64,000 nt of DNA. Source: Candidatus Lucifugimonas marina. GTDB taxonomy: Bacteria; Chloroflexota; Dehalococcoidia; Lucifugimonadales; Lucifugimonadaceae. A model generated the notes under the pieces. It was not told the origin of the DNA, did not search any database, and saw only the letters and a program-made list of their open reading frames with translations. Location of the stretch: positions 2,899,001 through 2,963,000 of the forward strand of contig CP046147.1 of the NCBI GenBank assembly GCA_029593915.1. Direction: 5' to 3'. Shown here piece by piece: positions 21,756-39,917 of this stretch; within the stretch, counting starts at the first letter, position 1; every line of letters starts with the position of its first letter. Both the position numbers and the translations under genes were made by a program.

Positions 21756-23414
21756 TCAGAAGCCATCTCGAACCGCCCACCCCGCACGAAAAACGGGGCT
21801 GTAGCTCAATTGGGAGAGCGCTTCAATGGCATTGAAGAGGTAGAGGGTTCGAATCCCTCCAGCTCCACCAAACGACACTGTAGGTGGTACACCCTCCTCG
21901 CTAAGACTGGATTTTTCCGGTGGAAGTGGGAGGGTGTACTCCGTTTCGACGATATTGCCCTTTTTACGAATGGTCTTTACAAACGTCCTCAGGAACGTTT
22001 TTCGTTGTGAAAGAGTACCGGCTGCGAGCAGGCCTTTGAGGTCGGCCAAGTATCGGAGCACTTCCTCGGTTTGCACGAGTTTCGACTCGGTCTCCACATC
22101 AGAGTAATGAATCGCTTGAATATCTTCTACGAGCGTCTTTTCTCGATCACGCAACTCACGTAATCTGGGCGCGAGGTCGATCATTGGCAGATCACCCCGT
22201 TCGATGATGTCGTAGAGCCGACTCAGCCGCTTTCGTACTTTCGTAATTTCACCGGAAATTACGGCCGACTCGGCCTTCAATGACTTTGCGCGGGTAACAA
22301 GAGTTTCGTTCGTAAGTTCAACGAGTCGAATGAGATTAGGCTCAGTTAGGACGACATGCAGGATCCTTGCCATAACCCTTTGTTCGATCAGATTCTTTTC
22401 GACCGGTGTACCACCACACTCTGTATTTCCGAGTCTGTAAGCAGTTCCACACACGTAGTAGGAATATTTACCCGACTTCGCAGCATGCCCGATCAACAGA
22501 GCTCCACAATCGCCGCATGTAAGAATTCCGCTGAGTAAGAATCTCGATCCTGCTCTCCTCGCATTGAGTGTCTTTGGAGCCCGGTCTTTGAGCGATGCTT
22601 GAACACGATCGAATGTACTCCGATCGATTATCACCGGAAATGCATCTTCAACCCTGATCGGCTCAAGACCGGCCTCCCGATGATGTCTTCCTCGTTCACC
22701 AAACACGAGAGTGCCTGTATAGGCAGGGTTCACCAGGATCTTGTGCACTCGCCCTCGGCCCCACTTCTTACCCCGAGGCGATGGGACCCCTTTCGAGTTC
22801 AAACTTACAGCGATATCCTTCACACCTGTTCCATTCAGCGCTAACCTAAATATCTCCTCGACGATCTCCGAGCTACCGGCCTCGATCATTAGCGTTGATC
22901 GTTCTTTTGCTCCGTCGACAACTTTCTTTCGTCGATATCCGTACGGGGCACGAGAGTTTACCCAAAATCCTCTCGATGCCGCTTCACGCATCCCTCTTAC
23001 GACATCCTGTGCAAGATTCAGAGAGTAGAACTCGTCAACTGTCTCGATAATTCCTGCTAAAAGCTGCCCTGATGGACTTTCATCGATGGGTTCATTTATC
23101 GAGATCACCTTGATGCCCTGCTTCTTGAGCATCGCCTTGAAGACGATCGAGTCTTCACGGTTTCGGGCGAAACGACTGAGTTTCCAGACCAAAATCCCTT
23201 CAAACGGTCTCGGACCCCGTTTGGCGTCCGAGATCATTTTCAAGAACTTTGGCCGGTCTGCCGACCGACCACTCTCGGCTTCTTCGATGTACTCCTCAAC
23301 GATGATCATGTCGTTATCGAGCGCATGTCGTCGAAGGGCATTGATCTGTGCCGATGTGGAAAGCTCAACGTCCTGTGCAAGCGACGAGGCACGAGCATAG
23401 GTTGCAACATTCAT
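21756..23414 (-). CDS. large serine recombinase (integrase)
   Basis: Site-specific recombinase of 552 residues that probably inserts and excises the element. The catalytic domain starts MNVATYARASS with nucleophile Ser10 in Y-A-R-A-S, and has LVWKLSRFARN plus the YSLNLAQDVVRGMREAASRGFW transition into the recombinase domain. A zinc ribbon (CGDCG ... YYVCGTAYRLGNTECGG) near residue 300-330 and a coiled coil (about 365-450) follow, as in phage-type integrases. The last 37 residues, from about GGAGGIRTL, are read from the antisense of tRNA-Ala and the upstream chromosome, so they are a product of integration. Its gene follows the HTH-like gene by 19 bases. Confidence 0.92.
   Translation of the reverse strand: MNVATYARASSLAQDVELSTSAQINALRRHALDNDMIIVEEYIEEAESGRSADRPKFLKMISDAKRGPRPFEGILVWKLSRFARNREDSIVFKAMLKKQGIKVISINEPIDESPSGQLLAGIIETVDEFYSLNLAQDVVRGMREAASRGFWVNSRAPYGYRRKKVVDGAKERSTLMIEAGSSEIVEEIFRLALNGTGVKDIAVSLNSKGVPSPRGKKWGRGRVHKILVNPAYTGTLVFGERGRHHREAGLEPIRVEDAFPVIIDRSTFDRVQASLKDRAPKTLNARRAGSRFLLSGILTCGDCGALLIGHAAKSGKYSYYVCGTAYRLGNTECGGTPVEKNLIEQRVMARILHVVLTEPNLIRLVELTNETLVTRAKSLKAESAVISGEITKVRKRLSRLYDIIERGDLPMIDLAPRLRELRDREKTLVEDIQAIHYSDVETESKLVQTEEVLRYLADLKGLLAAGTLSQRKTFLRTFVKTIRKKGNIVETEYTLPLPPEKSSLSEEGVPPTVSFGGAGGIRTLYLFNAIEALSQLSYSPVFRAGWAVRDGF
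21795..21870 (+). tRNA. tRNA-Ala (anticodon GGC)
   Basis: Folds as a full cloverleaf: acceptor GGGGCTG / CAGCTCC (one G-T pair), D-arm GCTC...GAGC, anticodon stem CTTCA/TGAAG with loop ATGGCAT giving anticodon GGC, T-arm GAGGG-TTCGAAT-CCCTC, discriminator A and an encoded CCA at 21868-21870. The gene is the integration target of the element that begins at 21871: its last ten bases are repeated at 39908-39917. Its original downstream terminator now lies at 39927-39958, 18 kb away. Confidence 0.97.
21861..21890. other. attL: tRNA 3' core plus left arm
   Basis: Core AGCTCCACCA (21861-21870) followed by element arm AACGACACTGTAGGTGGTAC. It lies inside the 3' part of the serine recombinase frame, so the integrase's last codons are read across the junction. 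Joined with the right arm it gives a symmetric attP of about 50 bases, the size usual for large serine integrases. Confidence 0.8.
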
Positions 23415-23433
23415 GAATCAACCTCCTCTTTAA

Positions 23434-24351
23434 TCAAAGTCGGAATCTTTTACAGCTTTTACATGTTCCTGGCAGGTAGGTGACCATCCTGAGCATCGCC
23501 AGTTCTTCGAGTAGACCGGAACTCGCCCTGGTGAGCGCGGTCCAGCTGGTCAGGATGTCTCGACCTACATCCGAAACCGATACACCCCTGACCTTGGCTG
23601 AGATCATGGTTCTGAGGTCATCAACGTCGTCGAACGATAACGATGTCAGTTTTGTCGATCCCAGCCAAATCCCACCTTGATCTGGATCGATGACTAAATC
23701 ACGCAGCACTTCGTCAACACTGTGGTCACTCTTGATCCGGTCGTTCGCTGCTGCGGTCTCTATCCTAGATAGTCCAGCCATTTCGAATGGTTCATCGACG
23801 CTTTCTGGAGCACCAGGACCAGCTGCTAACTCTATTTGGATCTGGGCAGCAAAACGTGTTCTCATAGCTATCCAGTGAGCTACCGAGTCGGAGAACTTAT
23901 CTAACTGCTTCCACATCTTGTCCGAGGGCAGATGCTCTTTCAGAAGACGTAACTCGATCGATTCCTCGCTAGGAATACGAACGCGCCAGGAGCTTCCCGC
24001 TAGCTCAGCGGTGACAGACCCGATCGCCACTTTGTTCACCGTGACAGCGTACAAAGGCAGTGGGTTCAACCTGCCAGTTGTAGTTGACTTGATCGCTTTT
24101 GTAAGAGGGTCAATGCCTGCAAGGAGATGCTTGGAGTGTTCCCGGATCGCATGTTGTAACTCGGCAGCACTTGCCGCTCTTTCAGCGATTTCGGCCTTGG
24201 TTTTTTTCAGGGCCCGCTCGATCGTCCGGGAATCGACCACCTTCCCGGTTCGGTCACGGTGCTTTTTACGAATCTCAGCGACCGTAAGACCCTGGAGCGC
24301 CAGCTCGGCCCATTGACGCGCATGGGTTGGATTGACAGTTCGGGGCATCAC
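23434..24351 (-). CDS. integrase-linked protein with putative N-terminal HTH
   Basis: I do not recognise this 305-residue protein. The N-terminus (THARQWAELALQGLTVAEIR, then GKVVDSRTIERALKKTKAE) reads as a helix-turn-helix like those of resolvases or small regulators. The middle is helical, with a strand-rich SSWRVRIPSEESIEL section, and the end has CKSCKRFRL, a C-x2-C pair. Its stop is 19 bases before the integrase start, so both are one transcript. Candidate roles are regulator or directionality factor of the integrase, by position only. Confidence 0.75.
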   Translation of the reverse strand: MMPRTVNPTHARQWAELALQGLTVAEIRKKHRDRTGKVVDSRTIERALKKTKAEIAERAASAAELQHAIREHSKHLLAGIDPLTKAIKSTTTGRLNPLPLYAVTVNKVAIGSVTAELAGSSWRVRIPSEESIELRLLKEHLPSDKMWKQLDKFSDSVAHWIAMRTRFAAQIQIELAAGPGAPESVDEPFEMAGLSRIETAAANDRIKSDHSVDEVLRDLVIDPDQGGIWLGSTKLTSLSFDDVDDLRTMISAKVRGVSVSDVGRDILTSWTALTRASSGLLEELAMLRMVTYLPGTCKSCKRFRL

Positions 24352-24457
24352 ACATCTCCGACAGATAGGTGGTCGTCATCTTTTAATAATATCAGAGACA
24401 TTATTTATTCCATGTTGGTGTTCTTAGTACATTTTCATACACGGGTATGGTTCCCCC

Positions 24458-24652
24458 ATGTCCGGTATCAGAAAGCGAAATGGCAGCGACGAATCGTCCC
24501 ATGTTGAGGACGGTCTCGTGATCCTCGCTTCAATGCTGGCGGACATGCTGGCTGGGGCCAGCCAGGACAGATCTCACGCTGCTCCAGAAGACCCTTCAAT
24601 TGAGGTCGAGGATGCGCAGCCGTCGGGACCCAGGAGCCCCGGCCAGTCCTAA
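24458..24652 (+). CDS. small acidic ORF of 64 residues
   Basis: Short frame between the integrase operon and the zinc-finger gene. It has one hydrophobic helix (GLVILASMLADMLAGA) and a Pro/Ser-rich acidic tail. No convincing Shine-Dalgarno precedes the ATG (CCCCC lies there). May be a real small element gene or chance; position at the left end of a mobile element makes an accessory role possible. Confidence 0.3.
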   Translation: MSGIRKRNGSDESSHVEDGLVILASMLADMLAGASQDRSHAAPEDPSIEVEDAQPSGPRSPGQS

Positions 24653-24790
24653 AGCCTCAACCCCAATAGATGTCTGAAGAAAGCCATTGCATCGAAATTT
24701 ATCTACGCCTCACATCGTTACGGCAACTGCTTACGCTTTTACGTTCGCAAGAACATTCCCAAGATCGTTTGTGAATGCCTTGGCAAATGC

Positions 24791-24879
24791 CATTAGTGTG
24801 CGCGCGTACGGGGGCTCCATTCGTCCTCGTATCAACACGAAAACACATATCGAATAGAGAACAATGGAGCACACTAATG
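24791..24879 (+). promoter_or_regulatory. long-range hairpin that covers the ribosome site and start codon
   Basis: CATTAGTGTGC (24791-24801) is the exact reverse complement of GCACACTAATG (24869-24879), which contains the ATG start; GCTCCATT (24814-24821) is the reverse complement of AATGGAGC (24863-24870), which contains the GGAG ribosome site. Together they would pair in the leader RNA and hide both signals, with about 40 bases in the loop. A translational control element is inferred. Confidence 0.5.
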
Positions 24880-25875
24880 CCAGGTAGAAAGCGAAAGCAC
24901 CAAAAAAATCGTGCTCGAGAAAGTGACTACAGACCGCCCAGCAGGGAACCCAATACAGGAAAAGAGATAGTCGACGAGGAACTGGTCAAGAGTGGCGCTA
25001 TACAAGGAGCTAGAGCTGATAGTTTCTCGGACGGTGGTTTCGGATGTCCTGATTGCTCCTGGACTACACCGAAAAAAGGTAATTCAGGTATTCAAGCGCT
25101 CAGGGCTCATTCTAAGGTCCACGTCAGAGACCGCAGGGCCGTTGTGAGCACCCTCACCATTCAGGCAGCGGTCCTCGTGGTGGCGGTTGCGATTACCCTA
25201 ACTCCGGTTTTCCTACAGATCGGCTTATCGGATGTCGTAAGTGATATTCGGTTCTACGTTCCAGTCAACACTGAACTTATTCTCGGGACGACAGTCGTCG
25301 CATCCACCGTCCTCACCGTTTCAGTTTTACTCACCGGAAGCCAGTACGTCATGAGAGGAAAACGTCGGTGGGGGTTCCGGTATACGTGGTCTGTACGTCT
25401 GTTGGTGGCATATATGTTGCTGGCAGCGAGTTTGAAGTGGTCAGAGGATGGACAAGACATCTGGTTACACTGGCTCGCTCCGGTTCTCGTTCTCTGGGCT
25501 GCATGGGCATTGATTGGAACCGACGTTGCGTTGACCCTGCTGGCCATAAAACGCGGGACTTTTGAGCCGCGAAATCAACGCAAACTCCTGAAGTCAAAGA
25601 ACGAGATAACTAATCAGAGGATAGGCATCTTCCGTCGCAGCGTTCAGGTGCGAATTCGAAATGGTCTAATCGTTCTAGACAAGCTTTCGAAAAGGCGTCG
25701 TAACTCCTACAACCAACTCGGTGTCGGTGAGACCCGACTCATCAAGAGAAGTCAACAAACACGGCTAGAACGGGAAGAGGAACAGCGCCAGAAACTCAAG
25801 CGAAGGAATCTGAAAAGCCAACGAGACCAAGGTCGGAGAAACAGGCCCGATGACGCTTCATCTCGTGGTGTGTGA
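24877..25875 (+). CDS. C2H2 zinc-finger membrane protein, unrecognised
   Basis: A 332-residue protein of unknown function. The start at ATG 24877 is set by GGAG eight bases upstream; an upstream frame to 24775 lacks such a site. Layout: basic N-terminus (GRKRKHQKNRARE), a C2H2-like finger (C57-x2-C60-x17-H78-x3-H82, FGCPDCSW ... ALRAHSKVH), four membrane helices (about 90-115, 128-150, 170-190, 200-225), then a very basic, Arg/Gln-rich cytoplasmic tail likely to form a coiled coil and bind nucleic acid. A finger joined to a membrane domain and basic tail is unusual in bacteria. Lies in the integrative element. Confidence 0.75.
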   Translation: MPGRKRKHQKNRARESDYRPPSREPNTGKEIVDEELVKSGAIQGARADSFSDGGFGCPDCSWTTPKKGNSGIQALRAHSKVHVRDRRAVVSTLTIQAAVLVVAVAITLTPVFLQIGLSDVVSDIRFYVPVNTELILGTTVVASTVLTVSVLLTGSQYVMRGKRRWGFRYTWSVRLLVAYMLLAASLKWSEDGQDIWLHWLAPVLVLWAAWALIGTDVALTLLAIKRGTFEPRNQRKLLKSKNEITNQRIGIFRRSVQVRIRNGLIVLDKLSKRRRNSYNQLGVGETRLIKRSQQTRLEREEEQRQKLKRRNLKSQRDQGRRNRPDDASSRGV

Positions 25876-26097: not shown

Positions 26098-26805
26098 TCA
26101 GATCAGTGGGCCTCTACCCTTGAGAGCGCGGAAAAATCGATCTTGGTACTCGTCGAAAAGCTGCCACGCTTCCAATTCTCTGTGCAATACGGCTGGATCG
26201 AGGTTACCGTCTTGGACTTGGCGAAGTGAATCCTCGATTCGTAATCGAGCGTCGATCGGTACGCCGTTATCCATTTTCATGCGGCCCGATCGCACAAAGT
26301 CAGCGGCATTTTTGGGTCCCGAACTGTTCGTCAGGTCAAAGATGAATTTCATCAGCGACACGTCCCATAGCTCGTCTACACCGAGTATTACGGCTTCAAG
26401 TGGCTGCGATTCGCTGTCAATCCGTTTGCTAATCCGTTCGGCCACCTCTTCGGGTCGACTTGAGATGATCTCCATCTGTAATGGTTCGTTTGAATATGTG
26501 TAAAGAATGCCGGCATCGTCTGCCTGACCTCGACGAATCAGCTCACGCATGAAATCTTGAGCTTCCTCGCCGAATCCAACGGTCCTGGAAAGGAAGTGTG
26601 GCGTCACGATCTGAGGGCGTTCAGCCTTTACCTTGCCCCTCCTCAACACCGCTTCTTCGGTCCGTTTATCGGCGTCCAAAGCCTGATACATGGGCCTCGT
26701 CACCATGTTGTAGGTAACCACGGTGGCACCAAAACTGGCCAGTTTTTGGGAAGGCATTCTGACCACGACTGTATTAATCAGGACATTTAGGAATTCGGGG
26801 TTCAT
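26098..26805 (-). CDS. hypothetical protein, 235 residues
   Basis: I do not recognise the family. ATG at 26805 is preferred to TTG at 26826, which would overlap poorly with any ribosome site. The protein is soluble, with no signal or membrane helix. It has an N-terminal strand region (TVVVRMPSQKLASFGATVVTYN), a central RPQIVTPHFLSR-GFGEEAQDFMRELIRRG segment, and a C-terminal helical, acidic part (LEAWQLFDEYQDRFFRALKGRG). The even spacing of conserved-looking motifs suggests a true protein. Lies between the MITE and the enolase-superfamily gene on the opposite strand. Confidence 0.7.
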   Translation of the reverse strand: MNPEFLNVLINTVVVRMPSQKLASFGATVVTYNMVTRPMYQALDADKRTEEAVLRRGKVKAERPQIVTPHFLSRTVGFGEEAQDFMRELIRRGQADDAGILYTYSNEPLQMEIISSRPEEVAERISKRIDSESQPLEAVILGVDELWDVSLMKFIFDLTNSSGPKNAADFVRSGRMKMDNGVPIDARLRIEDSLRQVQDGNLDPAVLHRELEAWQLFDEYQDRFFRALKGRGPLI

Positions 26806-27319
26806 GTAAGTCCAATCATCGCGCAATTCGGAGAACCGGGCTTAGTGCGAGAACCGCTAATCTTGGTGTGAAACTTCGACGTTCCCGGGCTAGGAATATC
26901 TATCTTCTCGGGTGGGGCTGTGGGCAGGGCGACCGCTGGCGTAGGAGTCACGATCTTCTCGACCACAACGGTCTTTTGCGCCAGTCGCCTCCCAGTAGAA
27001 AAACGAATCTGGTCCGGGTGCCTTTATCGTGGTACGAATCGTTGAGCCCGATTTAGTCTGATAATGATTTGCGTGGTTGCGTACAACGGGTAAATCAATG
27101 AATACGAAAGGGAGTAGGGCTATCAAAGGCGACAGAAACTTCGGGTGCAAAGGGCGGTACGGTCCTCGCTGACAGGAAACCGCAATATGACCCAAGTACA
27201 ACAACGCCTGAACATTCGAGTACGCGCGGTGACAGCGATTACGTCGATCGGATTTATACTCTTGCGCCACTCCTCCAGCCCTTACCAACAAAATAAAGCA
27301 GCCAAGGATCCGCCGCCAT
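26806..27319. other. spacer with degraded coding remnant
   Basis: About 500 bases without a convincing intact gene. On the minus strand, frame ending near 26814, the translation RLAQKTVVVEKIVTPTPAVA followed by LPTAPPEKIDIPSPG looks like the linker of an exported lipoprotein but has no start or upstream domain. The overlapping minus frame at 26890-27378 looks random in composition. Probably decayed DNA plus the promoter for the enolase-superfamily gene. Confidence 0.35.
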
Positions 27320-28501
27320 ATGAAGGTCACACAGGTACGTACGTTCCCAGTCAGTGACGAAGAAGACCGCAGATACATTGTGGTCCGTGTAGATACTGAC
27401 GCCGGGATTCATGGTCTTGGTGAGGTCGGAATCGTTTGGTGGGGTCGCGCAATTGGCCAGGCTATAGAACACCTTTCGGAGCTGATCATAGGAGCAGATC
27501 CATGGGAGACAGAGCGCCTATGGCAAGAGATGTTCAGGTCTTCGTTCTTTCCGGCCGACAAGGTTTATTCGTGTGCGATAAGCGCAATCGACCTAGCCCT
27601 GTGGGACATCAAGGGTAAGTCGGTGGAGAAACCTGTATACAAGCTGCTCGGAGGTCCGGTACGCGACAAGGTTGTCTGCTACATACACACCCAGGGCGAA
27701 ACGATGCAGCAACTGGTCGACAACTCAGTCCAGGCCGTGGATCAAGGTTGGAAATTCGTCCGATGGGGCCAGCCAGAGTCGTCTGGTCCGATGGCCAACC
27801 GGAGCATGAACGAAACAAGAATGGGTTACTTGCAGCCTGAAGCCTCCAACCAACTCGCAGTTGAACAGATGTCGAAAGTTCGCGATGCGGTTGGCCCCGA
27901 TATCGAGTTATGCTTCGACGTTCATACTCGCCTCGATCCTCATCACGTCATAAAACTCTGCAAGGAACTTGAAGAATTCAAGCCTTTTTTCATTGAGGAT
28001 CCGATCCGATCCGAGAACCCGGGAACTTACCGACTAATTCGCGACAAAGTGAATCTGCCGATTGCGGCGGGCGAGCAGTGGTCGTCAAAATGGCAGTTCC
28101 GCCAAGTGATCGAGGAAGATCTGATCGACTACGCCCGTATTGACCTCTGTAATGTCGGTGGCCTTACCGAGGCCCTAAAAATCACACACTGGGCCGAAAC
28201 CCACTACATAGACATCGCCCCACACAATCCGCTTGGCCCGGTAAGTGCGGCGGCGTGTGTTTCACTGTGTATGGCTTCAACTAACGTTGGCGTGCAGGAA
28301 ATGCCCTTCGGACGACCTGGATCGTACGCTGCGAAGTTGTTCCCAGAACAGATGGACTGGGAAGACGGCTTCGCGTGGTGCTATGACAAGCCGGGTCTGG
28401 GCGTTGAATTCAAAATCGAGGAAGCCGAACACAGTCATTTTGAGATGGGTGGATTCGCTCCTCGGTTAATACGGGATGATGGGGCCTTCACGAATTGGTG
28501 A
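27320..28501 (+). CDS. mandelate racemase/muconate-lactonizing (enolase superfamily) enzyme
   Basis: A 393-residue enzyme of the enolase superfamily, mandelate-racemase subgroup, acting by metal-assisted proton abstraction alpha to a carboxylate; sugar-acid dehydratases are the commonest relatives. Visible parts: N-terminal capping domain (MKVTQVRTFPV ... LGEVGIVWWGRAIGQ), the ALWDIKGKSVEKPVYKLLGG helix, and metal ligands in LCFDVHTRL (Asp), FFIEDPI (Glu) and AAGEQW (Glu). The catalytic His lies in IAPHNPLGPVS, as in galactonate dehydratase-like enzymes. Carried on the integrative element without other sugar-acid genes nearby; substrate unknown. Confidence 0.9.
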   Translation: MKVTQVRTFPVSDEEDRRYIVVRVDTDAGIHGLGEVGIVWWGRAIGQAIEHLSELIIGADPWETERLWQEMFRSSFFPADKVYSCAISAIDLALWDIKGKSVEKPVYKLLGGPVRDKVVCYIHTQGETMQQLVDNSVQAVDQGWKFVRWGQPESSGPMANRSMNETRMGYLQPEASNQLAVEQMSKVRDAVGPDIELCFDVHTRLDPHHVIKLCKELEEFKPFFIEDPIRSENPGTYRLIRDKVNLPIAAGEQWSSKWQFRQVIEEDLIDYARIDLCNVGGLTEALKITHWAETHYIDIAPHNPLGPVSAAACVSLCMASTNVGVQEMPFGRPGSYAAKLFPEQMDWEDGFAWCYDKPGLGVEFKIEEAEHSHFEMGGFAPRLIRDDGAFTNW

Positions 28502-28709: not shown

Positions 28710-29864
<1,155 letters not shown>

Positions 29865-29991
29865 GTTCGAAAGAAAATATTCATCGACAAATGGTCGACT
29901 CTAATGAACGAATTGTCGGCTTAAATACAAGTTTCGAAGTCGTCTTTAGGTTGATCTAGTTTCGATGGGAGCACGGAGATCTGACAGAACC
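29865..29991 (+). mobile_element. relic of the IS6-family element, right end only
   Basis: This stretch aligns without gaps to the last 127 bases of the intact IS (about 39468-39594): it retains the end of the transposase gene (GACAAATGGTCGACTCTAAT is identical, followed by GCTTAAATA including the stop) and the terminal CTGACAGAACC. By eye there are seven differences in the first 63 bases and more in the noncoding part. The rest of that copy is missing. It forms the left border of the carotenoid block. Confidence 0.85.
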
Positions 29992-31739: not shown

Positions 31740-33205
31740 TCTGATCTGTTCCCTATCACGTCGCTAACGATCTCGGCGGACATTAGCACGGTGGGTGTGC
31801 CTCCGCCTGGATGTGTTCCTCCTCCGACGTAGTAGAGGTTGTTGATCTTCCGGTCTTTAAGCGATGGTCGGATGAAAGTTCCTCGCCATCCGTGTGAGAC
31901 TTGGCCATAGATCGAACCTCCGGGTGCTGAGTAGTCAGATTCAAGCCTCGCCGGGGTCCAGTACTCAACAAATTGAGCATTAGCGAATAGGTCTGGCATT
32001 CCTGATGCCGTCAGTCTTGCCTGTACCCTTCGGACTGCTTCTGCCTGGAACTCGGGTGTCCACGCTGATGGATCGGCAGGGGCGTTTGCCATCACAAATA
32101 CCGATTCAGCGCCTGCAGGTGCCGTTGTAGGATCAGTAACCGAAGGAATATTCACGTAGACGGTTGGGTCGTCAGGGAACCGGCGTTCATTGAAGATTTG
32201 AGAGAATTCTCGGTTGTAGTCTTCGGAAAAACAGACCGTGTGATGCCGAATATTCTTAAGCTTTTTGTTCAGCCCTATTAGCATCACGAACCCGGACATC
32301 GACCGCTGATCCGACTTGAGTTCGCGGCCAGCTTTCCCGTTGGTAATTCGGTGGATCGAACCCGGGTCCGCATTAGAAACTACGATGTCGGACTTTAGGG
32401 AATCACCAGTAGATGTCTCGACACCAACAGCACTACCGTTCTCAGTTGAAATATCACTGACAGCGACGTTGTACTTAATCCGAACACCTGCCTGAATTAC
32501 AAGGTTTCGCAGCTCTTGAACTATCCGATAAATGCCTCCCGGGACGTACCAGCCCCCGAACGCCAGTTCCATGTAGGGAATCAGGGCTAGCGTTCCGACC
32601 GCTTTCTCAGGAGTAGCGCCGACATAGGTTGGATAGCGTTCAAATACTTGACGCATGCGCGGGTCTTTGAAATGGTGTTGAACCGACTTCTTGTAGTTGC
32701 TCCACGCATGCCGTTTTGGTGCCGACAGCAGCAGTGACAAGTCTTTGAATCTCGGTCTTGCCAGTGGAGGTCGATCGAAGAATGTTTTTTCGGAGAGGTT
32801 GTATAGCTTAGCTCCCAGTTCGAGAAACCGGTACAGGCCATCAATGTCTTCAGTCGATCCGGTAAGTCTTTCTATCTCAGCAGTTAGATAGGAAAGTTCT
32901 GAGGAGTAGGTGAAGCGGCTTTGATCACTGAATCTGTACTCGAACAATGGATCGAGCCTAACCGGGTTCAGCCGTTCGCGGAAGTCCACACCACCAATGG
33001 CGAAGAGGCGATCGAATACGTGAGGCAAAGTTATGAGAGATGGCCCTGTATCGAACCTGAAACCGTCTTGCTCGTATCGGTTGAGCTTTCCTCCGGGTTC
33101 GGGGCCTTGCTCGAGCACCACAACCTTCCAGCCGCGGTGCACCAACCGCAATGCAGTTGCCAGTCCACCTAATCCTGCTCCGACTACAAATGCTGTCCTA
33201 GTCAT
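31736..33205 (-). CDS. CrtI-family carotenoid desaturase, second copy (CrtD-like)
   Basis: FAD-dependent carotene desaturase, 489 residues. N-terminal dinucleotide fold TAFVVGAGLGGLATALRLVHRG with VLEQGPEPGGKLNRY and the CrtI segment GFRFDTGPSLITLP; C-terminal YYVGGGTHPGGGTPTVLMSA is the FAD/membrane-contact end. Beside cruF and a glycosyltransferase, the best guess is a C-3,4 desaturase (CrtD-like) acting on the 1-hydroxylated end, but a plain phytoene desaturase step cannot be excluded. Starts eight bases inside the end of the GT2 gene (ATGACTAG overlap). Confidence 0.9.
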   Translation of the reverse strand: MTRTAFVVGAGLGGLATALRLVHRGWKVVVLEQGPEPGGKLNRYEQDGFRFDTGPSLITLPHVFDRLFAIGGVDFRERLNPVRLDPLFEYRFSDQSRFTYSSELSYLTAEIERLTGSTEDIDGLYRFLELGAKLYNLSEKTFFDRPPLARPRFKDLSLLLSAPKRHAWSNYKKSVQHHFKDPRMRQVFERYPTYVGATPEKAVGTLALIPYMELAFGGWYVPGGIYRIVQELRNLVIQAGVRIKYNVAVSDISTENGSAVGVETSTGDSLKSDIVVSNADPGSIHRITNGKAGRELKSDQRSMSGFVMLIGLNKKLKNIRHHTVCFSEDYNREFSQIFNERRFPDDPTVYVNIPSVTDPTTAPAGAESVFVMANAPADPSAWTPEFQAEAVRRVQARLTASGMPDLFANAQFVEYWTPARLESDYSAPGGSIYGQVSHGWRGTFIRPSLKDRKINNLYYVGGGTHPGGGTPTVLMSAEIVSDVIGNRSE

Positions 33206-34352
33206 CAGTGATAACTATTCCATCGGCCATGTAGGTGCGACCCTTCCATGCAACCCCACCACGTACCGCACTTCGCCACCAGGACCTCATACCCAGTGTG
33301 AGCATCACCGTGATCGCTAGTGGATGGAGCAGGACGGGCCAGAATGGATGTTGAAAACGAATTGCGATTAGCGAGCGAGGGATCAGGGTTGCGATGGCTG
33401 CCAACAGGTAGATGGGATCAGATCCGGCTCCGAATACGCTGTACAACGAGATCAATGGCAGCGCGACGAAAGCCACTCCCATGTAGAACTGGAAGGTTAC
33501 AAACGATCTCAGGCTGCCGAGCGCTGGATAGTAGTTCTTCGAGAAGCCGTTCCAAATACCCGTGAAATCTTCGTACATGTGGACAGTTGCTACTTGCCTG
33601 CCGTCCACAACCTGCGAATTTTCAGATCGCTCCCGCCATACTCTGGCTAACGCGGTGTCCTCAAATAGGCGGTCCTTGACCAACTCGTGACCACCGAGCT
33701 TTTCGTAAGTATGGCGTTCGGCGAGAATGCATGCTCCGTGTGCGAGGCCGAGCGAAGCGCCTTTTCTTCGGCGGGAGATTGGTGTTGGAAATAGGCTGAA
33801 TACAACGAAGTTGAGTAGTGGCATCAGCAAGCGCTCAGCAAACGACTGCATTTCGATGCTGGGCCATGCAGATAACAACGTTGCTTTACTGTGCAGAGCT
33901 TCCGCCACGAGTTTTTCAGCAGCGTTTGGTTTGAGTCTCGTGTCAGCATCGACAAACAGCACCCACTGAGAGTGAGCACAGTCCGCCAGCTTCATGCATG
34001 CATGCGACTTTCCAACCCAGCCTGCAGGTAGGCTCACTGATTGGACTTGTCGAACCGTGTCAGGGTGATCTGCAAGAAGTCGATCTATGACCTGCTGCGT
34101 GCCGTCTGTTGAGCCATCGTTATAGATAAGTATCTCTGCTACAACGCTACCCTGTGCGAGTATAGAATCTGCACAGGCTTCGATGTTGTTCTCTTCGTCA
34201 CGCGCCGGTATCAGCACCGACACGAGGCCCGAGCCAACATTCATATGCTTGAGCCGCCGCGGCCAAAGCAGCAGGTTCATAAGTGCAACTAGTGTTACCG
34301 GGCCCAATAGGACCGTCGAAGCGATCATGATTGCGAGTTCGATACTAGTCAT
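33198..34352 (-). CDS. GT2-family glycosyltransferase of carotenoid cluster (CruG/CrtQ-like)
   Basis: Membrane-bound family 2 glycosyltransferase, 384 residues. The start ATG at 34352 gives a signal-anchor helix (IELAIMIASTVLLGPVTLVALM); an upstream extension in frame lies antisense-like in composition. GT2 motifs: SVLIPARDEENNIEACADS, ILIYNDGSTDGTQQV and the D-x-D as LFVDADTRL; three or so helices at the C-terminus. Position between two crtI genes and cruF suggests sugar transfer to a hydroxy carotenoid, as with CruG in cyanobacteria or CrtQ in staphylococci. Overlaps both neighbours by eight bases. Confidence 0.85.
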   Translation of the reverse strand: MTSIELAIMIASTVLLGPVTLVALMNLLLWPRRLKHMNVGSGLVSVLIPARDEENNIEACADSILAQGSVVAEILIYNDGSTDGTQQVIDRLLADHPDTVRQVQSVSLPAGWVGKSHACMKLADCAHSQWVLFVDADTRLKPNAAEKLVAEALHSKATLLSAWPSIEMQSFAERLLMPLLNFVVFSLFPTPISRRRKGASLGLAHGACILAERHTYEKLGGHELVKDRLFEDTALARVWRERSENSQVVDGRQVATVHMYEDFTGIWNGFSKNYYPALGSLRSFVTFQFYMGVAFVALPLISLYSVFGAGSDPIYLLAAIATLIPRSLIAIRFQHPFWPVLLHPLAITVMLTLGMRSWWRSAVRGGVAWKGRTYMADGIVITDD

Positions 34353-35088
34353 TGCCAAATACCAGTTTCGCCACCGCTTCACTCTGCTCTTCGATCGGCA
34401 GATGACCTGCACCGGCCAGCGTGTGGATGTGAACGTTTGGCAGGGTCTCCTGGAGAATGCGAGATGACTTCCTGACTGCACTGAATGTCTTTTCGCCAAT
34501 GATTACATCGACCGGAATATCGAGGTCGACGTAGCGCGCTGGCCCTTCGTGCTCGTACATCATTCGGAGGAATGAATGAACAGCTCCGTGGTCGACCCGC
34601 TCAAACGATGCGGTGAGATCTGAGTCGCCGGTTCGCTTCCCACGCAACGCCTGGTTGGTGAAGAAACGACCAATAGGTGATGCAAACGTCGTCTTATAAG
34701 CCATCTTGCCGAACGTACCTTTGAGAAAGATTGAGAAGTACCACGGCACATATGCAAACGGATCGATCATCACCAGCCGCTTCACTCGTTTCGGCCTGAG
34801 TTTCGCTAGCTCTGCGCCGATCACTCCACCTGTACAGTTCCCTATGAGGGTCACTGGTTCATCTAGCGTCACTGAGGCAGCTAGCATCTCCGCGACCTCC
34901 TCGGTTTGCCAGCGTTCCGGCAGCGCCGACCTTCCGTATCCCGGTAGGTCCGGAGCTTCCAATCGAACAGCGGTAGGAATCATTGGTACTAAGGGCAGGA
35001 ACGTGTCATGACTGCCACCCCAACCGTGAATTGCCACGTAGTTTGAGCGGCCTTCGCCCCATGTCTTTACTTCCAGTGGTGTGCTCAT
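34345..35088 (-). CDS. alpha/beta hydrolase with Cys in the nucleophile elbow
   Basis: A 247-residue alpha/beta-hydrolase-fold protein inside the carotenoid operon. ATG at 35088 overlaps the preceding stop (ATGA) and gives MSTPLEVKTWGEGRSNYVAI. HGWGGSHDTF is the oxyanion loop. The nucleophile elbow reads LIGNCTGGVIGAE, so Cys85 stands where Ser is usual (G-x-S-x-G), as in dienelactone hydrolase. The family Asp may be in DIPVDVIIGEKTF and the His is in AGAGHLPIEE. A role in acyl transfer or ester handling on the glycosyl carotenoid is possible; not established. Confidence 0.8.
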   Translation of the reverse strand: MSTPLEVKTWGEGRSNYVAIHGWGGSHDTFLPLVPMIPTAVRLEAPDLPGYGRSALPERWQTEEVAEMLAASVTLDEPVTLIGNCTGGVIGAELAKLRPKRVKRLVMIDPFAYVPWYFSIFLKGTFGKMAYKTTFASPIGRFFTNQALRGKRTGDSDLTASFERVDHGAVHSFLRMMYEHEGPARYVDLDIPVDVIIGEKTFSAVRKSSRILQETLPNVHIHTLAGAGHLPIEEQSEAVAKLVFGND

Positions 35089-36587
35089 GTTGCCAGCTCT
35101 TTTCGAGCCCATTCGGTGACACGATCTGCAGCCATTCTGCCGCTCAATACGCACATGGGAACGCCGGTTCCGGGTGTAGTGGATGCTCCAGCGAAGAACA
35201 GGCCACTTACCGTTGATGAGATGTTGCGAGGCCGAAATGGACCAATCTGCCGAAGGTTGTGAGCCGCACCGAATGCCGATCCATCGAACAGACCGAACTC
35301 TTTCGACCAGTCAACCGGCGACCATGCTTCCTGCTTGATGACGTCGCTCTCTCGTATGCTTATCCCATGGTCGTTCATGCGCCGAAACATCTTAGATTTC
35401 AGATCGTCCGCCATTCGCTCCCAGTCCGCTTCTGGCAACTGGGACATCAACGGAACCGGAGCGAGCAGGAATACTGCAGATTTGCCCTCCGGGGCAAGTG
35501 AATGATCAGTGTTGGATGCTACAGAAACATAGAACGGAAGGTCATCCGGAACCTTACCCTGTTTCATCAACTGGTCATACGCAAACTTCGGGTCTTCCGG
35601 AAGGAATACGCTATGGTGATTCAATTTTGGGAGTTCACGATCGACTGCTAGGTAGTACGTGATAACTCCGGGCGTCATCTTCGGCGGCTTGTAGCCATTT
35701 GAGGTGAGACCTGTTTCCGTATGCAGAAGGCGAGTCATCGTCGTCGGGACATCCACGTTCGAGACAACGACTTGCGCTCGCTCAATGCTTCCATCTGCGA
35801 GGGTGATACCCGCAACACGACCGTTCGTACTGTCGATGCTCTTCACCGGACTTCCGGTCTGAACATCGACTCCAATGCGCACTGCAACTCGCTCCATTGC
35901 TTCGATCAGGCTGTACATTCCTCCACTAGGAAGCCAGAGACCGTACTCTAGCTCACCGAAAGGGATGATTGAGAAGATGCCTGGCAGGTCGTACGGTGAT
36001 CCTCCGAGGTACATGCCGTATGAGCCTAGAGCTTCCCGAATCTTGCTGCTGTGGAAGTGCTTCCCTAGCTGCGAGTCCATAGAGCGGAAGAGACCGAGTT
36101 TTCTGAGGTTGCCAACGCCTGCTGCAGATAACCAGGAGAGCGGTGAATCCGAATTGCTGCTCACTAGCCGGCTGAACGACAGGTTGTACTTGCGCCGTGC
36201 GTCCCTCAGGAAGTTGAACAGGCCGACGCTATCTCGCGGGTCCAGTCGGCGGCACTGTTCAGATAGGCGTGTCAGATCTGAAGAAGGCTGAAAGGTTTCT
36301 TTGTCCGGCCAGTAGAATTTTATTGCCGGATCAACTCTTATTAGCTCGAGTTCCTGGCTGAGACTGGTTCCAGCGGCCTTGAAGAGTTCATCGAAAACCC
36401 ATGGATAGTTGAGCAGTGACGGTCCTGTATCGAACTTAAAGCCGTCAAACTCTATGACGTTCGCCCTACCTCCAACGCGGTCATTGGATTCAAAAAGTGA
36501 GACTTGATAGTCGCGTACAGCAAGTTGGATTGCAACGGACAATCCGGCTACTCCACCTCCAACAACGATCGCCCTGTCCGTCTCCAT
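35085..36587 (-). CDS. crtI: CrtI-family phytoene desaturase
   Basis: FAD-dependent desaturase, 500 residues, next to phytoene synthase and therefore the likely converter of phytoene to lycopene (or neurosporene). Motifs: AIVVGGGVAGLSVAIQLAVR, LFESNDRVGGRANVIEFDG, FKFDTGPSLLNYPWVFDELF at the N-terminus; GLFFAGASTTPGTGVPMCVLSG at the C-terminus (in parts: GASTTPGTGVPMCVLSG). It starts six bases after the crtB stop and ends in an ATGA overlap with the hydrolase gene. Confidence 0.92.
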   Translation of the reverse strand: METDRAIVVGGGVAGLSVAIQLAVRDYQVSLFESNDRVGGRANVIEFDGFKFDTGPSLLNYPWVFDELFKAAGTSLSQELELIRVDPAIKFYWPDKETFQPSSDLTRLSEQCRRLDPRDSVGLFNFLRDARRKYNLSFSRLVSSNSDSPLSWLSAAGVGNLRKLGLFRSMDSQLGKHFHSSKIREALGSYGMYLGGSPYDLPGIFSIIPFGELEYGLWLPSGGMYSLIEAMERVAVRIGVDVQTGSPVKSIDSTNGRVAGITLADGSIERAQVVVSNVDVPTTMTRLLHTETGLTSNGYKPPKMTPGVITYYLAVDRELPKLNHHSVFLPEDPKFAYDQLMKQGKVPDDLPFYVSVASNTDHSLAPEGKSAVFLLAPVPLMSQLPEADWERMADDLKSKMFRRMNDHGISIRESDVIKQEAWSPVDWSKEFGLFDGSAFGAAHNLRQIGPFRPRNISSTVSGLFFAGASTTPGTGVPMCVLSGRMAADRVTEWARKELAT

Positions 36588-36593: not shown

Positions 36594-37676
36594 CTACCTT
36601 TCGAAGAGTATGGCGACAGGTAGCCGCCAGTATCTGCTTACGGGCAACACTGAAAGCTTTTCGAAGACTGAAAGGGAACAGCGTTCGGTGAAGGATTCGC
36701 TGGACAGGATCTTGCTGTTCAGACGTGAATAAAGACGGTGACACGCTTCAATCGCTATCCGACTGTCCGGGTGGAATGCCTGGATTCCTAGTTCTGCCTT
36801 TTCGTACCAGGACGCCGCAAATTCGGCGAGTTGCAGCTTCGCTTCTTCGATTGAAGCAGGATCACCTGCTAGGACTCCATCCGAAACTCGCTTTCCATCC
36901 ACATCAACCTGATCTAGCGGAAGGTAGCTCCGACCACGCGCCGAATCGTCTAATACGTCACGGGCAAAGTTTGTTAGCTGAAGCGCTATTGCAAGTGCAC
37001 GGGCACTTTCGAGGCACTGAACCATGGTCGCCCCGGATGCCGGTTTGTAGATGTGAGCCAGGAAGTATCCAACAACGCTAGCTGAGCCATAGATATAGTT
37101 TTCGATAAGATCTCGCCACGTGGCGTAGGGACGTGGAGAGATGTCACGCCTCATAGACCGTAGAAACGCTGCGTAGTAGCGATCCGGAATTCCATTTCGG
37201 CGCGCGACGTCTCGGAAGCCGGCGACCGTAACCGGAATGCCGTTTTCGACCATCTCTCTGATCCCTGTGAAAGATGCAGAATCTTCAAAGTGATCATGCC
37301 AGTCTTCAATGGCGGCTGACTTTAATTCCGGGGTCAGGTCGAACGTGTCGACCACTTCATCTGGATAGCGAACTGCTGCGTATACAATCTCGACATCAGC
37401 ACGCTTTGCTGCCGGCAGAAAACGAGTAACGGCGTAAAAGGATGAGCTGTATGAGCGCAATACTTTGCGACCCCACCGTGCAGAGGCAGATCTGGCACCG
37501 GATTCACCAGTCTGGCGAAGGACCTTTTTCTTTATGGAGGCATGCAGGCGGTCCCACCTCTCACGGTTCCAGACCTGATCTGACTGAACACTATGGATGA
37601 TACCCGGTTGAGCTGCGTTCTCTGCGTCCAGATGGGTTTCAATAACCGCTTGAGTGAGTTGCTTGATCCGGATCAT
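36594..37676 (-). CDS. crtB: phytoene synthase (squalene/phytoene synthase family)
   Basis: Head-to-head prenyl synthase, first committed step of carotenoid formation. 360 residues, with an N-terminal extension of about 60 residues before the catalytic core RSYSSSFYAVTRFLPAAKR. The two Asp-rich motifs are VRYPDEVVDTF (D-E-x-x-D) and NFARDVLDDSARGRSYLP (D-x-x-x-D); YGSASVVGYFLAHIY is also typical. GGAAAAGG lies seven bases upstream of the ATG. Whether the product is C40 phytoene or C30 diapophytoene cannot be told from motifs alone. Confidence 0.92.
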   Translation of the reverse strand: MIRIKQLTQAVIETHLDAENAAQPGIIHSVQSDQVWNRERWDRLHASIKKKVLRQTGESGARSASARWGRKVLRSYSSSFYAVTRFLPAAKRADVEIVYAAVRYPDEVVDTFDLTPELKSAAIEDWHDHFEDSASFTGIREMVENGIPVTVAGFRDVARRNGIPDRYYAAFLRSMRRDISPRPYATWRDLIENYIYGSASVVGYFLAHIYKPASGATMVQCLESARALAIALQLTNFARDVLDDSARGRSYLPLDQVDVDGKRVSDGVLAGDPASIEEAKLQLAEFAASWYEKAELGIQAFHPDSRIAIEACHRLYSRLNSKILSSESFTERCSLSVFEKLSVLPVSRYWRLPVAILFER

Positions 37677-37716
37677 GTCGTAGCCTTTTCCAGATAGTTA
37701 GAGCTTATGATTTGTG

Positions 37717-37733
37717 ATGTTTATATAAAACAT
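37717..37733. promoter_or_regulatory. AT-rich palindrome upstream of crtB
   Basis: ATGTTTATATAAAACAT, a perfect inverted repeat of six-base arms around ATATA, lies about 40 bases before the crtB ATG in the only sizeable gap of the carotenoid operon. On the minus strand it contains TATATAA, usable as a -10 box. Likely an internal promoter or operator; no cognate regulator gene is present in the element. Confidence 0.4.
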
Positions 37734-37745
37734 AAAACCATACTG

Positions 37746-37955
37746 TTACCGACCGTATACGGCAACATGTTTTCCTGCAACCTCAGACCCGAGAAAGTTT
37801 GGCCCTGTGACCGAACTAAGAGTGAATGTTCGCTTGCCAGCGGTATTGGTGCAATTTGAAACCACCGACTTTATCGGATAGAAGATCGCTCCGGTCAACA
37901 ACTCGCCCTTGGTTTTGACAGAACCACCTGAACTAGATCTATGTGATAGCGCCAT
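37746..37955 (-). CDS. small protein coupled to the SRPBCC gene, 69 residues
   Basis: Starts one base after the SRPBCC stop (TGA-A-ATG overlap region), which suggests translational coupling. The sequence has no signal or membrane helix, one Cys (SVVSNCTNT) and an end of VTGPNFLGSEVAGKHVAVYGR. I do not recognise it. It may be a real small gene or the remnant of a longer one truncated near crtB. Confidence 0.35.
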   Translation of the reverse strand: MALSHRSSSGGSVKTKGELLTGAIFYPIKSVVSNCTNTAGKRTFTLSSVTGPNFLGSEVAGKHVAVYGR

Positions 37956-37956
37956 T

Positions 37957-38448
37957 TCAGGAAGATTTTGACCTCAGTGCTTTTTGAGTCGCATAGTTTC
38001 TATACCGAAAGATTCTTAGTAGATCTCGTGCTACAAAAAGTCTGTTTGTAAGCCTTCCAAATGGGACCTTGTATTTCACGAAGTCGTTCACTATGGTGCC
38101 ACCTTGTGGACAGACCTCTAAGGTGTGCATGTGTGACCACATTTTGTATGGACCTTTAATCTGTGTGTCCACGAACCTGTAAGGAGGGTCCCACAATGAA
38201 ATCTCGGACCTCCATCTCACAGGAAAACCATGAATTTTAAGTCGATACTCGATTTGTGTTCCCGAATGCATATTGATGGGAGTATCGGAGACGATCGCGA
38301 ACTTTAGCCAAGACGGCGTTATTAGGTTCAGATTTTCCGCGTTCGCGAAAAAGGCGAATGTATCACAAACGTCACTCTCAACTGTCGTTCGAGAACGCAG
38401 CAGATAGCTAGCGCCATTTCCACGAGTTATTGATAATTGTTTATCCAT
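37957..38448 (-). CDS. SRPBCC-family lipid-binding-like protein
   Basis: A 163-residue protein of the SRPBCC (START/polyketide-cyclase-like) fold, first gene of the carotenoid block. Recognisable parts: SRTTVESDVCDTFAFFANAENLNLITPSWLKF (start of fold, in parts ATTVESD and FFANAENLNLITP), then GTQIEYRLKIHGFPVRWRSEI, PPYRFVDTQIKGPYKMWSH and TIVNDFVKYKVPFG. Such proteins bind hydrophobic ligands in a deep cavity; with carotenoid genes, a carrier or cyclase-like accessory role is possible. No signal peptide. Confidence 0.8.
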   Translation of the reverse strand: MDKQLSITRGNGASYLLRSRTTVESDVCDTFAFFANAENLNLITPSWLKFAIVSDTPINMHSGTQIEYRLKIHGFPVRWRSEISLWDPPYRFVDTQIKGPYKMWSHMHTLEVCPQGGTIVNDFVKYKVPFGRLTNRLFVARDLLRIFRYRNYATQKALRSKSS

Positions 38449-38645
38449 TTAATTAGCCGGCAAATCTTGACCAGAGCCCCATACGTAAGGCAAGTTGTTG
38501 TTTTCGACCCAACCAAATTGTCCGTAGTGATTAGTATCTTTTCGTAGAAGATTACTTCAATGGGCCGCATCGAAGTCGGAGTTATCCAGCCAAGCGGGAG
38601 AAATCGGTGCGATATCAGGGACGATTAATTTCATAGTGTTTCGGT

Positions 38646-39594
38646 GGTTCTGTCAGAACTCAGTGTCGGGGCAGAATAGCATCATTCCTCATTTGCTGAG
38701 GAGATCGATTCATGTCCTGCCCACACTGCCTGTCTTCGTCCGTATCCAAGAGAAAACATCGAACCTCACTTGGCTATCGGACTATCTATTGCCGGGACTG
38801 CGATAGGCGTTTCAATGAGCGCACCGGTTCACCGTTCAACGATCTCCAGTTTCCGACAGATATCGTCTTACTAGCTGTTCTCTGGCGTCTGAGGTACAAG
38901 CTCGGGTTTCGTGATGTCGCTGAACTTCTCTTGCAGCGTGGGTTCCAAGTCAGCCACGAAACCATTCGGATTTGGGAGTTCAGGTTTGCACCGTTGGTCA
39001 GTGAGCACCTTCGATTGAAACGTCGTGGAATTGCAGGCCGTTCCTGGTATCTGGACGAAACTTACGTAAAAGTTAGTGGTCGCTGGCGCTATCTCTACCG
39101 AGCCATAGATCGAGAAGGAAACCTGCTTGATTCGATGCTTAGTGAACACCGAGATAAACATGCTGCCCGGCGTTTCCTACGCCGTCTAATCGATAGCGCG
39201 GAGCGTAAGCCACTGCGGACGACAACTGACAAACATCCTGCCTACACGAAGGCGATTCGTTGGATCGTTGGTCGAAAAGTTCTCCATCGGCACAATCAGT
39301 ATTTGAACAACCGAATGGAGCAGAATCACCGGCATATCAAACAGCGTTATTATCCGATGCTAGGTTTCGCCAAGTTCGAGTCAGCGAGTCGTTTCTGCAC
39401 GGCATTCGATGAGTTGAGGAATTATTTAAGAGTTCGTGCCACAGACGGGGAGCATATTCCAGCGGAAGTTCGAAGGAAGATATTCACCGACAAATGGTCG
39501 ACTCTAATGGCCGAGTTGTCAGCTTAAATAATGGGATGAATCCTGTATTTAGGTCGGCCTATTTTCGAGATATGCACTGAGTTCTGACAGAACC
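38646..39594 (+). mobile_element. intact IS6-family insertion sequence
   Basis: 949 bases bounded by 20-base perfect inverted repeats: GGTTCTGTCAGAACTCAGTG (38646-38665) and its reverse complement (39575-39594). Each end itself contains the palindrome GTTCTGTCAGAAC. The flanking eight bases differ (GTTTCGGT and AGAGCACT), so no target duplication marks it as a simple insertion; recombination between copies is likely. Relics at 25943-26085 and 29865-29991 share its ends. Confidence 0.9.
38712..39527 (+). CDS. IS6-family DDE transposase
   Basis: A 271-residue transposase. It has an N-terminal zinc ribbon (CPHC near residue 3 and YCRDCDRRF near 27) and helix-turn-helix (FRDVAELLLQRGFQVSHETI). 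The DDE catalytic triad is in WYLDETYVKVSGRWRYLYRA (Asp), TTTDKHPAY (Asp) and NNRMEQNHRHIKQR (Glu), spaced as in IS6/IS240 proteins. The frame is complete between the terminal repeats, so the element may be active. Confidence 0.95.
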   Translation: MSCPHCLSSSVSKRKHRTSLGYRTIYCRDCDRRFNERTGSPFNDLQFPTDIVLLAVLWRLRYKLGFRDVAELLLQRGFQVSHETIRIWEFRFAPLVSEHLRLKRRGIAGRSWYLDETYVKVSGRWRYLYRAIDREGNLLDSMLSEHRDKHAARRFLRRLIDSAERKPLRTTTDKHPAYTKAIRWIVGRKVLHRHNQYLNNRMEQNHRHIKQRYYPMLGFAKFESASRFCTAFDELRNYLRVRATDGEHIPAEVRRKIFTDKWSTLMAELSA

Positions 39595-39603
39595 AGAGCA
39601 CTC

Positions 39604-39648
39604 GCCCACGTAGTTCAGTTGGATGGAGTACAGGCCTCCGAAGCTCGG
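39604..39648 (+). pseudogene. 5' fragment of tRNA-Arg(CCG)
   Basis: GCCCACG TA GTTC then AGTTGGAT and GGAGT resemble a tRNA acceptor and D-arm, followed by an anticodon region with loop CTCCGAA (anticodon CCG). The anticodon stem is imperfect and no variable loop or T-arm follows, so the gene is cut at about position 43. It lies just after the IS6 right end. Confidence 0.55.
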
Positions 39649-39786
39649 AACAATCACTCGCTCACACCACCAAGTGCGTCGGCAAGCTTGTCTGAAGCTT
39701 CAACGTGAGAATCTGGATCAGCGTGCAGTCGAGTCACTGAATAGGAGCCGATTCGACCGTGATACCGAAGGGATGAAATTCGAGTT

Positions 39787-39841
39787 TGGTGGGCCCTGTG
39801 GGGATCGAACCCACGACCTGCGGACTAAAAGTCCGATGCTC
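39787..39841 (-). pseudogene. 3' fragment of tRNA-Lys(TTT)
   Basis: On the minus strand, GAGCATCGGA, loop CTTTTAG (anticodon TTT), TCCG, AGGTC, T-arm GTGGG-TTCGATC-CCCAC, then AGGGCCC, discriminator A and CCA (39789-39787) match a tRNA-Lys. The 5' acceptor strand GGGCCCT is absent, so the gene is truncated in the D-arm. It is the kind of 3' tRNA fragment left by integration events, and ends 46 bases inside the element's right arm. Confidence 0.8.
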
Positions 39842-39887
39842 ATCAATTTACCGGCAGCGGTGTTTCAAGTCGAAGGAATCCAGATAG

Positions 39888-39917
39888 GTACCACCTACGG
39901 TTTCGTTAGCTCCACCA
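39888..39917. other. attR: right arm plus core
   Basis: Element arm GTACCACCTACGGTTTCGTT followed by the core AGCTCCACCA and then chromosomal GAAATTTTTGAG leading into a hairpin with T-rich end, the expected downstream region of tRNA-Ala before insertion. The arm is the inverted counterpart of the left arm (11 identical bases GTACCACCTAC, then two differences in nine). Confidence 0.8.

Follow-up and report, generated by a model that had tools for sequence, protein, structure and literature searches.

The element considered here is an 18-kb island at the 3' end of a tRNA-Ala gene of Candidatus Lucifugimonas marina (Chloroflexota, class Dehalococcoidia; NCBI GenBank assembly GCA_029593915.1, contig CP046147.1), and the gene of its large serine integrase appears to contain attP, the attachment site of the circular form. 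The island lies in a stretch of 64,000 nucleotides (positions 2,899,001 to 2,963,000 of the forward strand), which is called the window below and whose first letter is position 1. Several described systems share features with it. In the excerpts of the cited papers on which this comparison draws, the dsiB gene always overlaps attL at ssrA and has no stop codon within the island (McMurdie et al. 2011, PMC3146451); among the options proposed there, DsiB would have its full function only when encoded on the circle, or when the adjacent island carries the 3' fragment. The DsiB islands and the window island both have a reverse-strand serine integrase of about 540 residues adjoining attL, with a frame open across attL, as well as metabolic cargo and no recognised conjugation genes. 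On the other hand, the target of the DsiB islands is ssrA (transfer-messenger RNA, tmRNA), with the crossover in the T-loop region, whereas the window target is tRNA-Ala; a small DsiA recombinase adjoins their integrase, whereas the neighbour of the window integrase has no family match; and a conserved circle-form tail is not among the features reported in the excerpts (PMC3146451). The DsiB-type enzymes at tmRNA in our collection (L262, L264) share only about 28% identity with the window enzyme, which consequently lies on a different branch.

One of the Dehalococcoides tRNA-Ala islands has a site-specific recombinase gene beside a repeated tRNA-Ala sequence (McMurdie et al. 2009, PMC2764846), but the excerpt does not describe a split integrase or the attP structure. 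Related enzymes with 49-50% identity to the window integrase are found at tRNA-Ala in genomes G297 and G343. In the Myxococcus phage Mx8, attP lies within the integrase gene, and integration supplies a new 3' end (PMC6070905); Mx8 differs in being a phage with an unrelated enzyme, listed among the tyrosine-family integrases that extend across attP (Islander). The integrase genes of SSV-type archaeal viruses also extend across attP and are split by integration (Islander). As an initial annotation made from the DNA letters had proposed, the window protein is a large serine integrase: Resolvase N-terminal, Recombinase and zinc ribbon domains are present in one protein, all above gathering scores, and the core shared by its attachment sites is short and sits in a symmetric attP of some 50 bp, as for enzymes of this kind. 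SSV-type integrases are tyrosine recombinases of viruses, and their gene is cut far from its end; the CcrB recombinases of SCC elements act at a different target gene. CcrB (NCBIfam NF047343) belongs to the same recombinase superfamily, matching over residues 3-455, but the window integrase scores 153 bits against an NCBIfam equivalog cut-off of 900.

Among the titles and abstract openings listed, none reported attP within, or splitting, a serine integrase gene, and the excerpts of PMC10083194, PMC12884075 and PMC10654092 do not mention attP within such a gene. Within this literature, the conserved circle-only tail, its spread and the frequent tRNA switching described below appear to be new, whereas the missing dsiB stop at ssrA with the speculation about a circle (PMC3146451), attP inside the Mx8 integrase gene (PMC6070905) and the Dehalococcoides tRNA-Ala islands (PMC2764846) are already known from the excerpts.

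Island ends and empty site

The target gene is tRNA-Ala(GGC) (21795..21870, + strand; ARAGORN), whose 3' end is attB and which is still complete once the island is integrated. The attL core AGCTCCACCA (21861..21870, + strand) recurs exactly as the attR core (39908..39917, + strand), at the position given by the initial annotation, and the two cores lie 18,047 bp apart, measured from equivalent positions, which bears out the 18-kb integrative element proposed there. A third, armless copy of the core lies at 1690-1699 (shuffle expectation, 0.15 per window). The two element-side arms, both strand-neutral, are the P' arm (21871..21890), which doubles as coding sequence of the integrase C-terminal region (VPPTVS), and the P arm (39888..39907). 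They are inverted copies with 18 of 20 positions identical, as had been claimed, and with up to 3 mismatches allowed they are the sole matches of the shared arm pattern in the window (shuffle mean 0.04). In addition, core plus inverted arm match at 28 of 30 positions, a figure that does not exceed 20 for any of ten shuffled arms. The predicted symmetric attP of about 50 bases likewise holds: joining of the arms and the core gives such a site with CC at its centre. The crossover probably occurs at the CC of ..CCACCA. In the island of G139, the unbroken block common to attL and attR is CCACCA only, consistent with recognition of the end that tRNAs have in common.

Immediately 3' of the right core, where a terminator had been suspected, RNA folding places a hairpin (39927..39956, + strand; -21.8 kcal/mol, z -5.4) that fits the chromosomal tRNA terminator, shifted to the right end of the island. 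This hairpin is absent from the output of a consensus terminator scan, and the consensus promoter and terminator scans at the island ends were uninformative in general; similar inverted repeats are found immediately 3' of tRNA-Ala in several congeners. Of 18 congeners, 17 have the epimerase gene that precedes the tRNA (query 20657-21870). The empty site, which the initial annotation had suggested looking for in relatives, was found: the alignment of the joined-flank query crosses the junction by at least 36 nt in 7 of 15 congeners (G005, G006, G009, G010, G012, G013 and G014). Another 7 lack a conserved right flank at this place, the alignment breaking off no more than 12 nt from the junction. 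For G007, it reaches exactly to the junction, and the same element arm comes next. A base-composition difference between island and host was looked for and not found. Upstream of the tRNA, a short dispersed repeat (21510-21610) has several further copies in the genome and in congeners.

Related ends were also seen in other genomes. G007 has the same attL, and its integrase, part of which is on its contig, is 80% identical over residues 229-550; G017 has a 75% identical integrase at tRNA-Ala(CGC), and both islands have arms near-identical to those of the window island. One scan of genome contigs gave a single locus, which appears to be that of G007. An attR of the window family lies 2.6 kb from the tRNA-Ala of G004, and in G008 another lies on a different contig from its tRNA-Ala.

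The integrase frame through the attachment site

What the initial annotation overlooked, although its account of the element's structure stands, is that attP lies inside the integrase gene. The open reading frame (ORF) of the integrated state (21756..23414, - strand; Pfam Resolvase, Recombinase, Zn_ribbon_recom) has no stop before attL and crosses the core and the entire tRNA on the opposite strand. As a consequence, its last 38 codons are drawn from the core, the tRNA and the upstream flank, and the island itself encodes only 21871-23414. The integrase's own last codons are found at the opposite island end. The true stop lies about 20 codons beyond attP, so the circle would encode a full enzyme with a conserved C-terminal strand, and the whole integrase gene is predicted to be present only in the excised circle.

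The same arrangement was seen widely in the class. Searches with the integrase gave a match in 56 of 250 genomes of the order (E<=1e-30) and in 81 of 393 genomes of the class (E<=1e-60); both searches score few candidates per genome and miss some, so these counts are lower bounds. For instance, G010 gave no order-search match, yet an integrase end is present there in L045, and absence from a genome is consequently not claimed. After removal of matches ending before query residue 480 and of duplicates of the same 60 nt, 110 distinct matches were examined, and 64 of them have an antisense tRNA within 600 nt. The view that serine integrases at tRNA 3' ends are uncommon does not apply to this class. 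The 64 loci cover 12 anticodons (Ala GGC, TGC, CGC; Ile GAT; Val CAC, GAC, TAC; Arg CCT; Met CAT; Asn GTT; Leu TAG; Gln CTG). At every one of these 64 loci, the integrase frame is open to the tRNA end, and the tRNA is entered in one identical codon phase; reading began near the C-terminus, stops farther upstream in damaged copies being ignored, and ARAGORN tRNA ends were moved by up to 3 nt to reach TGG. The linker from the last conserved motif to the core has eight lengths at these loci, always in whole codons, and a DNA arm motif, approximately GTTCTnnCTAYnG, stands upstream of the core at a fixed distance in nearly all of them.

The remaining 46 matches are without such a tRNA, and several are convergent integrase pairs. 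Two related integrases on opposite strands are seen at L064, L074, L101, L103, L105, L106 and L107; in the convergent L106 pair, about 135 bp separate the matches and no tRNA was found. Such opposite-strand pairs may represent islands in which one attP serves two integrases. At L066, an integrase without a neighbouring tRNA has a complete tail of the conserved type (SSPPNLTIDRTIFEMWLGGL), as either an intact gene or a tandem junction would. At L045 (G010:C148), only about 24 bp of the tRNA-Ala 3' end come after a close arm copy by the integrase end, and this locus is possibly a secondary-site insertion or a tandem remnant.

The target has not stayed the same among these enzymes. A quick tree of 61 integrases (the 64 loci without three of under 430 residues) requires the tRNA amino acid to change 22 times and the anticodon 37 times, and close enzymes stand at different tRNAs, such as the sister rows L071 (Val) and L104 (Leu). 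Switching of the tRNA target accordingly appears frequent in this tree. Among 914 phage and 506 plasmid records, all relatives of the integrase are below 60% identity, at about 25-34% among the 15 matches listed for each. Viral-contig relatives were also sought; 12 stretches matched a pattern and none was confirmed.

The severed 3' end and the circle-form tail

The severed 3' end of the window integrase (GGANETVGGTYLDSFDLKHRCR, then a stop) occupies 39848..39916 on the - strand, and is in frame with the integrase body only after joining of the island ends. Corresponding attR sites were sought inside 28 other long loci by means of the shared core and the inverted arm motif. A first search with the full inverted arm made only the window and G139 stand out, and the motif-based search found more: attR was located in 16 of the 28, so that, with the window, both ends are known for 17 of 29 islands. 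When attL and attR were joined in silico, the integrase ended 18-25 residues past the core start in 15 of the 17. Examples of these circle-form tails are FGGAEVAVGRTFQFIFLIS and NGGRYQSIDRTFSLTFSLTPR, and that of the window is FGGANETVGGTYLDSFDLKHRCR; the class consensus is approximately GGxxxT-I/V-xRTFxLxFxL. The attR copies of G004 and G008 encode GGASETVGGTELDRF(R/P)L(G/V) followed by a stop, with GT-x-LD-x-F-x-L kept, and between the window and G004 tails 6 of 10 changed codons are synonymous up to the last leucine of that motif. L164/L235 resembles a tandem-island junction, with an integrase ORF that ends in a tail of the conserved type; in such a junction the integrase of one island can be followed by the tail of its neighbour, a possibility already raised by McMurdie et al. 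2011 (PMC3146451).

Based on these observations, the element is probably a mobile island at the tRNA-Ala 3' end, with attP in the integrase gene and a circle-only tail that is swapped on integration, perhaps as a lock. The island ends, the empty site, the conservation of the frame and the conserved circle-only tail may be taken as established at the level of sequence, and a circular form of the island is predicted from them. The large serine integrase would shuttle the island between this circle and the tRNA-Ala 3' end. Once the island is integrated, the gene body would stay at attL, with its frame continuing into the antisense strand of the tRNA; the conserved C-terminus would be replaced by antisense-tRNA codons, and the true 3' end would be stranded at attR. 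The full enzyme would serve insertion, the altered enzyme would be the one made afterwards, and excision would reset the lock. Most likely, the tail swap alters the activity or stability of the integrase and acts as a reversible lock.

The direction of such a lock could be reversed. Excision would then be the work of the integrated form, active with its tRNA-encoded tail, and the conserved tail would restrain the circle form or recruit a partner. Self-driven excision does require an integrase that acts from the integrated state, with the tRNA tail, but among the 17 islands the tails of the integrated state have between 4 and 42 residues and are set by the tRNA and the flank. Since these tails differ by tRNA type and some have just 4 residues, a specific positive role for them is unlikely, and we regard the reversed direction as the less likely one.

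It is also conceivable, but doubtful, that the window island is a formerly mobile element that is now fixed, and that the insertion sequences and stray tRNA pieces at its right end reflect decay. IS110- and IS240-type genes lie inside it, a tRNA-Lys fragment lies near attR, and the base composition is host-like. On the other hand, the integrase frame is intact, the arms agree at 18 of 20 positions and the severed tail is intact, while the near-identical arms of the G007 and G017 islands show past movement of the lineage.

Less probable still is that attP only abuts the gene, the enzyme being complete before the core and the codons that follow, from tRNA or P arm, having no role. The Pfam domains of the window integrase do stop well short of the core, integrated copies with tails of 4-5 residues exist (L167, L174, L181, L087), and a trivial explanation of this kind was given for DsiB in the excerpt of McMurdie et al. 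2011 (PMC3146451). However, the linker varies in whole codons only, and the codons beyond the DNA arm appear to be conserved as protein, with a fixed stop and an excess of third-position differences. For the stop, loci were picked class-wide by the arm DNA pattern alone, which matches in 116 of 393 genomes (a reversed control pattern also matches). In the first 30 such loci, the stop falls at codon 17-26 in 24, against a mean of 7.7 and a maximum of 16 in 2000 rounds with shuffled downstream DNA, and 23 of these 24 tails have an aromatic-x-hydrophobic-x-hydrophobic motif (mean of 6.4 in residue shuffles, none of 2000 reaching this count). Because the motif and the codon window had been picked after viewing the first sets, 40 further loci were tested with unchanged criteria; these are 40 of the 47 zero-mismatch arm places among the matches listed, 3 having already been used and 4 left out. 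The held-out loci have the stop at codon 17-26 in 34 of 40 (shuffle mean 11.0, max 21), and the motif is present in 32 of these 34 (mean 9.3, reached in 0 of 2000). Moreover, in 26 pairs whose tails are equally long and whose nucleotides beyond the arm are 55-97% identical, differences at codon positions 1/2/3 number 76/59/126 in the tail beyond the arm, compared with 179/191/190 downstream of the stop. The arm is clearly a DNA motif at fixed spacing, but the idea that the stretch beyond it is a longer, non-coding protein-binding site is highly improbable, given the position-3 excess that is gone after the stop and the strand-like residue pattern of the tails.

Several points weigh against the favoured reading of a mobile island with a tail swapped on integration. 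The motif and the codon window are post hoc for the first sets, only the 40-locus set being held out, and 6 of the 30 and 6 of the 40 arm-chosen loci fall outside the stop window. Loci and pairs share ancestry, so the shuffle counts are not independent probabilities; L281 and L285 yield an identical tail, and the 30 arm-chosen loci overlap with the 17 islands in at least 3 cases. The arm and tail of the window island itself (GTYLDSFDL) depart from the consensus, and the consensus arm pattern has 0 matches in the source genome (G000) against 2 for the reversed control. No attR was found in 12 of the 28 other long loci, 5 of which were searched over 17 kb or less. The attR acceptance score of 26 was fixed after looking, and the weakest accepted sites, L087 and L180, score exactly 26; control scores reach 28 for L183, where the real site scores 31, and 25 for L079. 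Finally, two of the 17 islands, both at tRNA-Asn, have circle tails running to 102 residues. In these two (L182 with L223 in G297, and L183 with L212 in G262), the extension resembles by eye a helix-turn-helix DNA-binding protein.

Extended to the class, a tail swapped on integration would mean islands with one integrase type at many tRNA ends, in which a strand lost and restored in each cycle sets the direction or activity of the enzyme and tandem islands re-arm by way of a stranded tail. This wider reading is plausible but is put forward tentatively. One-way insertion by serine integrases is usually explained by separate directionality factors. A second route is suggested here, in which integration itself would strip the gene of a conserved C-terminal segment. 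What was a speculation on one integrase in 2011 is here supported by comparison throughout a bacterial class, and the attachment sites are defined. The comparison also shows that serine integrases can be specialised for tRNA 3' ends and often switch from one tRNA to another. There are also practical implications: hidden attR ends may be located by seeking the stranded integrase tail, and the C-terminus assigned to such integrases in annotation can be antisense tRNA.

Genes and minor features of the island

Next to the integrase, a 305-residue protein (23434..24351, - strand) matches no Pfam, NCBIfam or PHROG family. Counterparts stand beside the integrase in G017 (55% identity) and G139 (18% identity, E 1e-5), and the protein is a candidate accessory or directionality factor that may aid excision. 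Then follow two proteins of unknown family, one of 366 residues (24775..25875, + strand; Pfam and PHROG scans) and one of 242 residues (26098..26826, - strand) with a single weak PHROG match. A sugar-acid dehydratase-like enzyme of the mandelate racemase/enolase superfamily (27320..28501, + strand; NCBIfam matches under cut-off) precedes an IS110-type transposase (28710..29816, - strand; Pfam) and a lipase-like protein (29956..30834, - strand; Pfam). Among the 15 island ORFs scanned, there was no Pfam match to relaxase or conjugation genes or to phage structural genes; a PHROG search of 5 ORFs matched the integrase to recombinase families and otherwise yielded a single weak match of unknown function.

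The cargo includes a carotenoid-pathway set, all on the - strand. A CruF-like carotenoid hydratase (30936..31739; PF04240, NCBIfam CruF under cut-off) is followed by a CrtI/CrtD-type carotenoid desaturase (31736..33205; TIGR02734 above cut-off), a CruG/HpnB-like family 2 glycosyltransferase (33198..34499; Pfam, NCBIfam under cut-off), an alpha/beta hydrolase (34345..35154; Pfam), a CrtI-type phytoene desaturase (35085..36587; TIGR02734 above cut-off), a CrtB-like squalene/phytoene synthase (36594..37676; PF00494, NCBIfam under cut-off) and a polyketide cyclase-like protein of SRPBCC type (37957..38448; weak, under gathering score). Near the right end lies an IS240/IS6-type transposase (38712..39527, + strand; Pfam).

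Just inside attR there is a stray copy of the last 55 nt of tRNA-Lys(TTT) (39787..39841, - strand), 98.4% identical over 62 bp to the intact gene elsewhere in the genome (G000), and near 39605-39640 a 5' half resembling tRNA-Arg was noticed by eye. These pieces may be traces of earlier islands. At the other end, a perfect 11-bp inverted repeat (GTACACCCTCC / GGAGGGTGTAC, found by eye at 21887-21939) lies in the integrase 3' coding region near the P' arm. A homologue of the phytoene synthase is present in 17 of 60 genomes searched, the source genome included, and its distribution within the genus is patchy (5 of 19 genomes: its own, G002, G006, G012 and G016).

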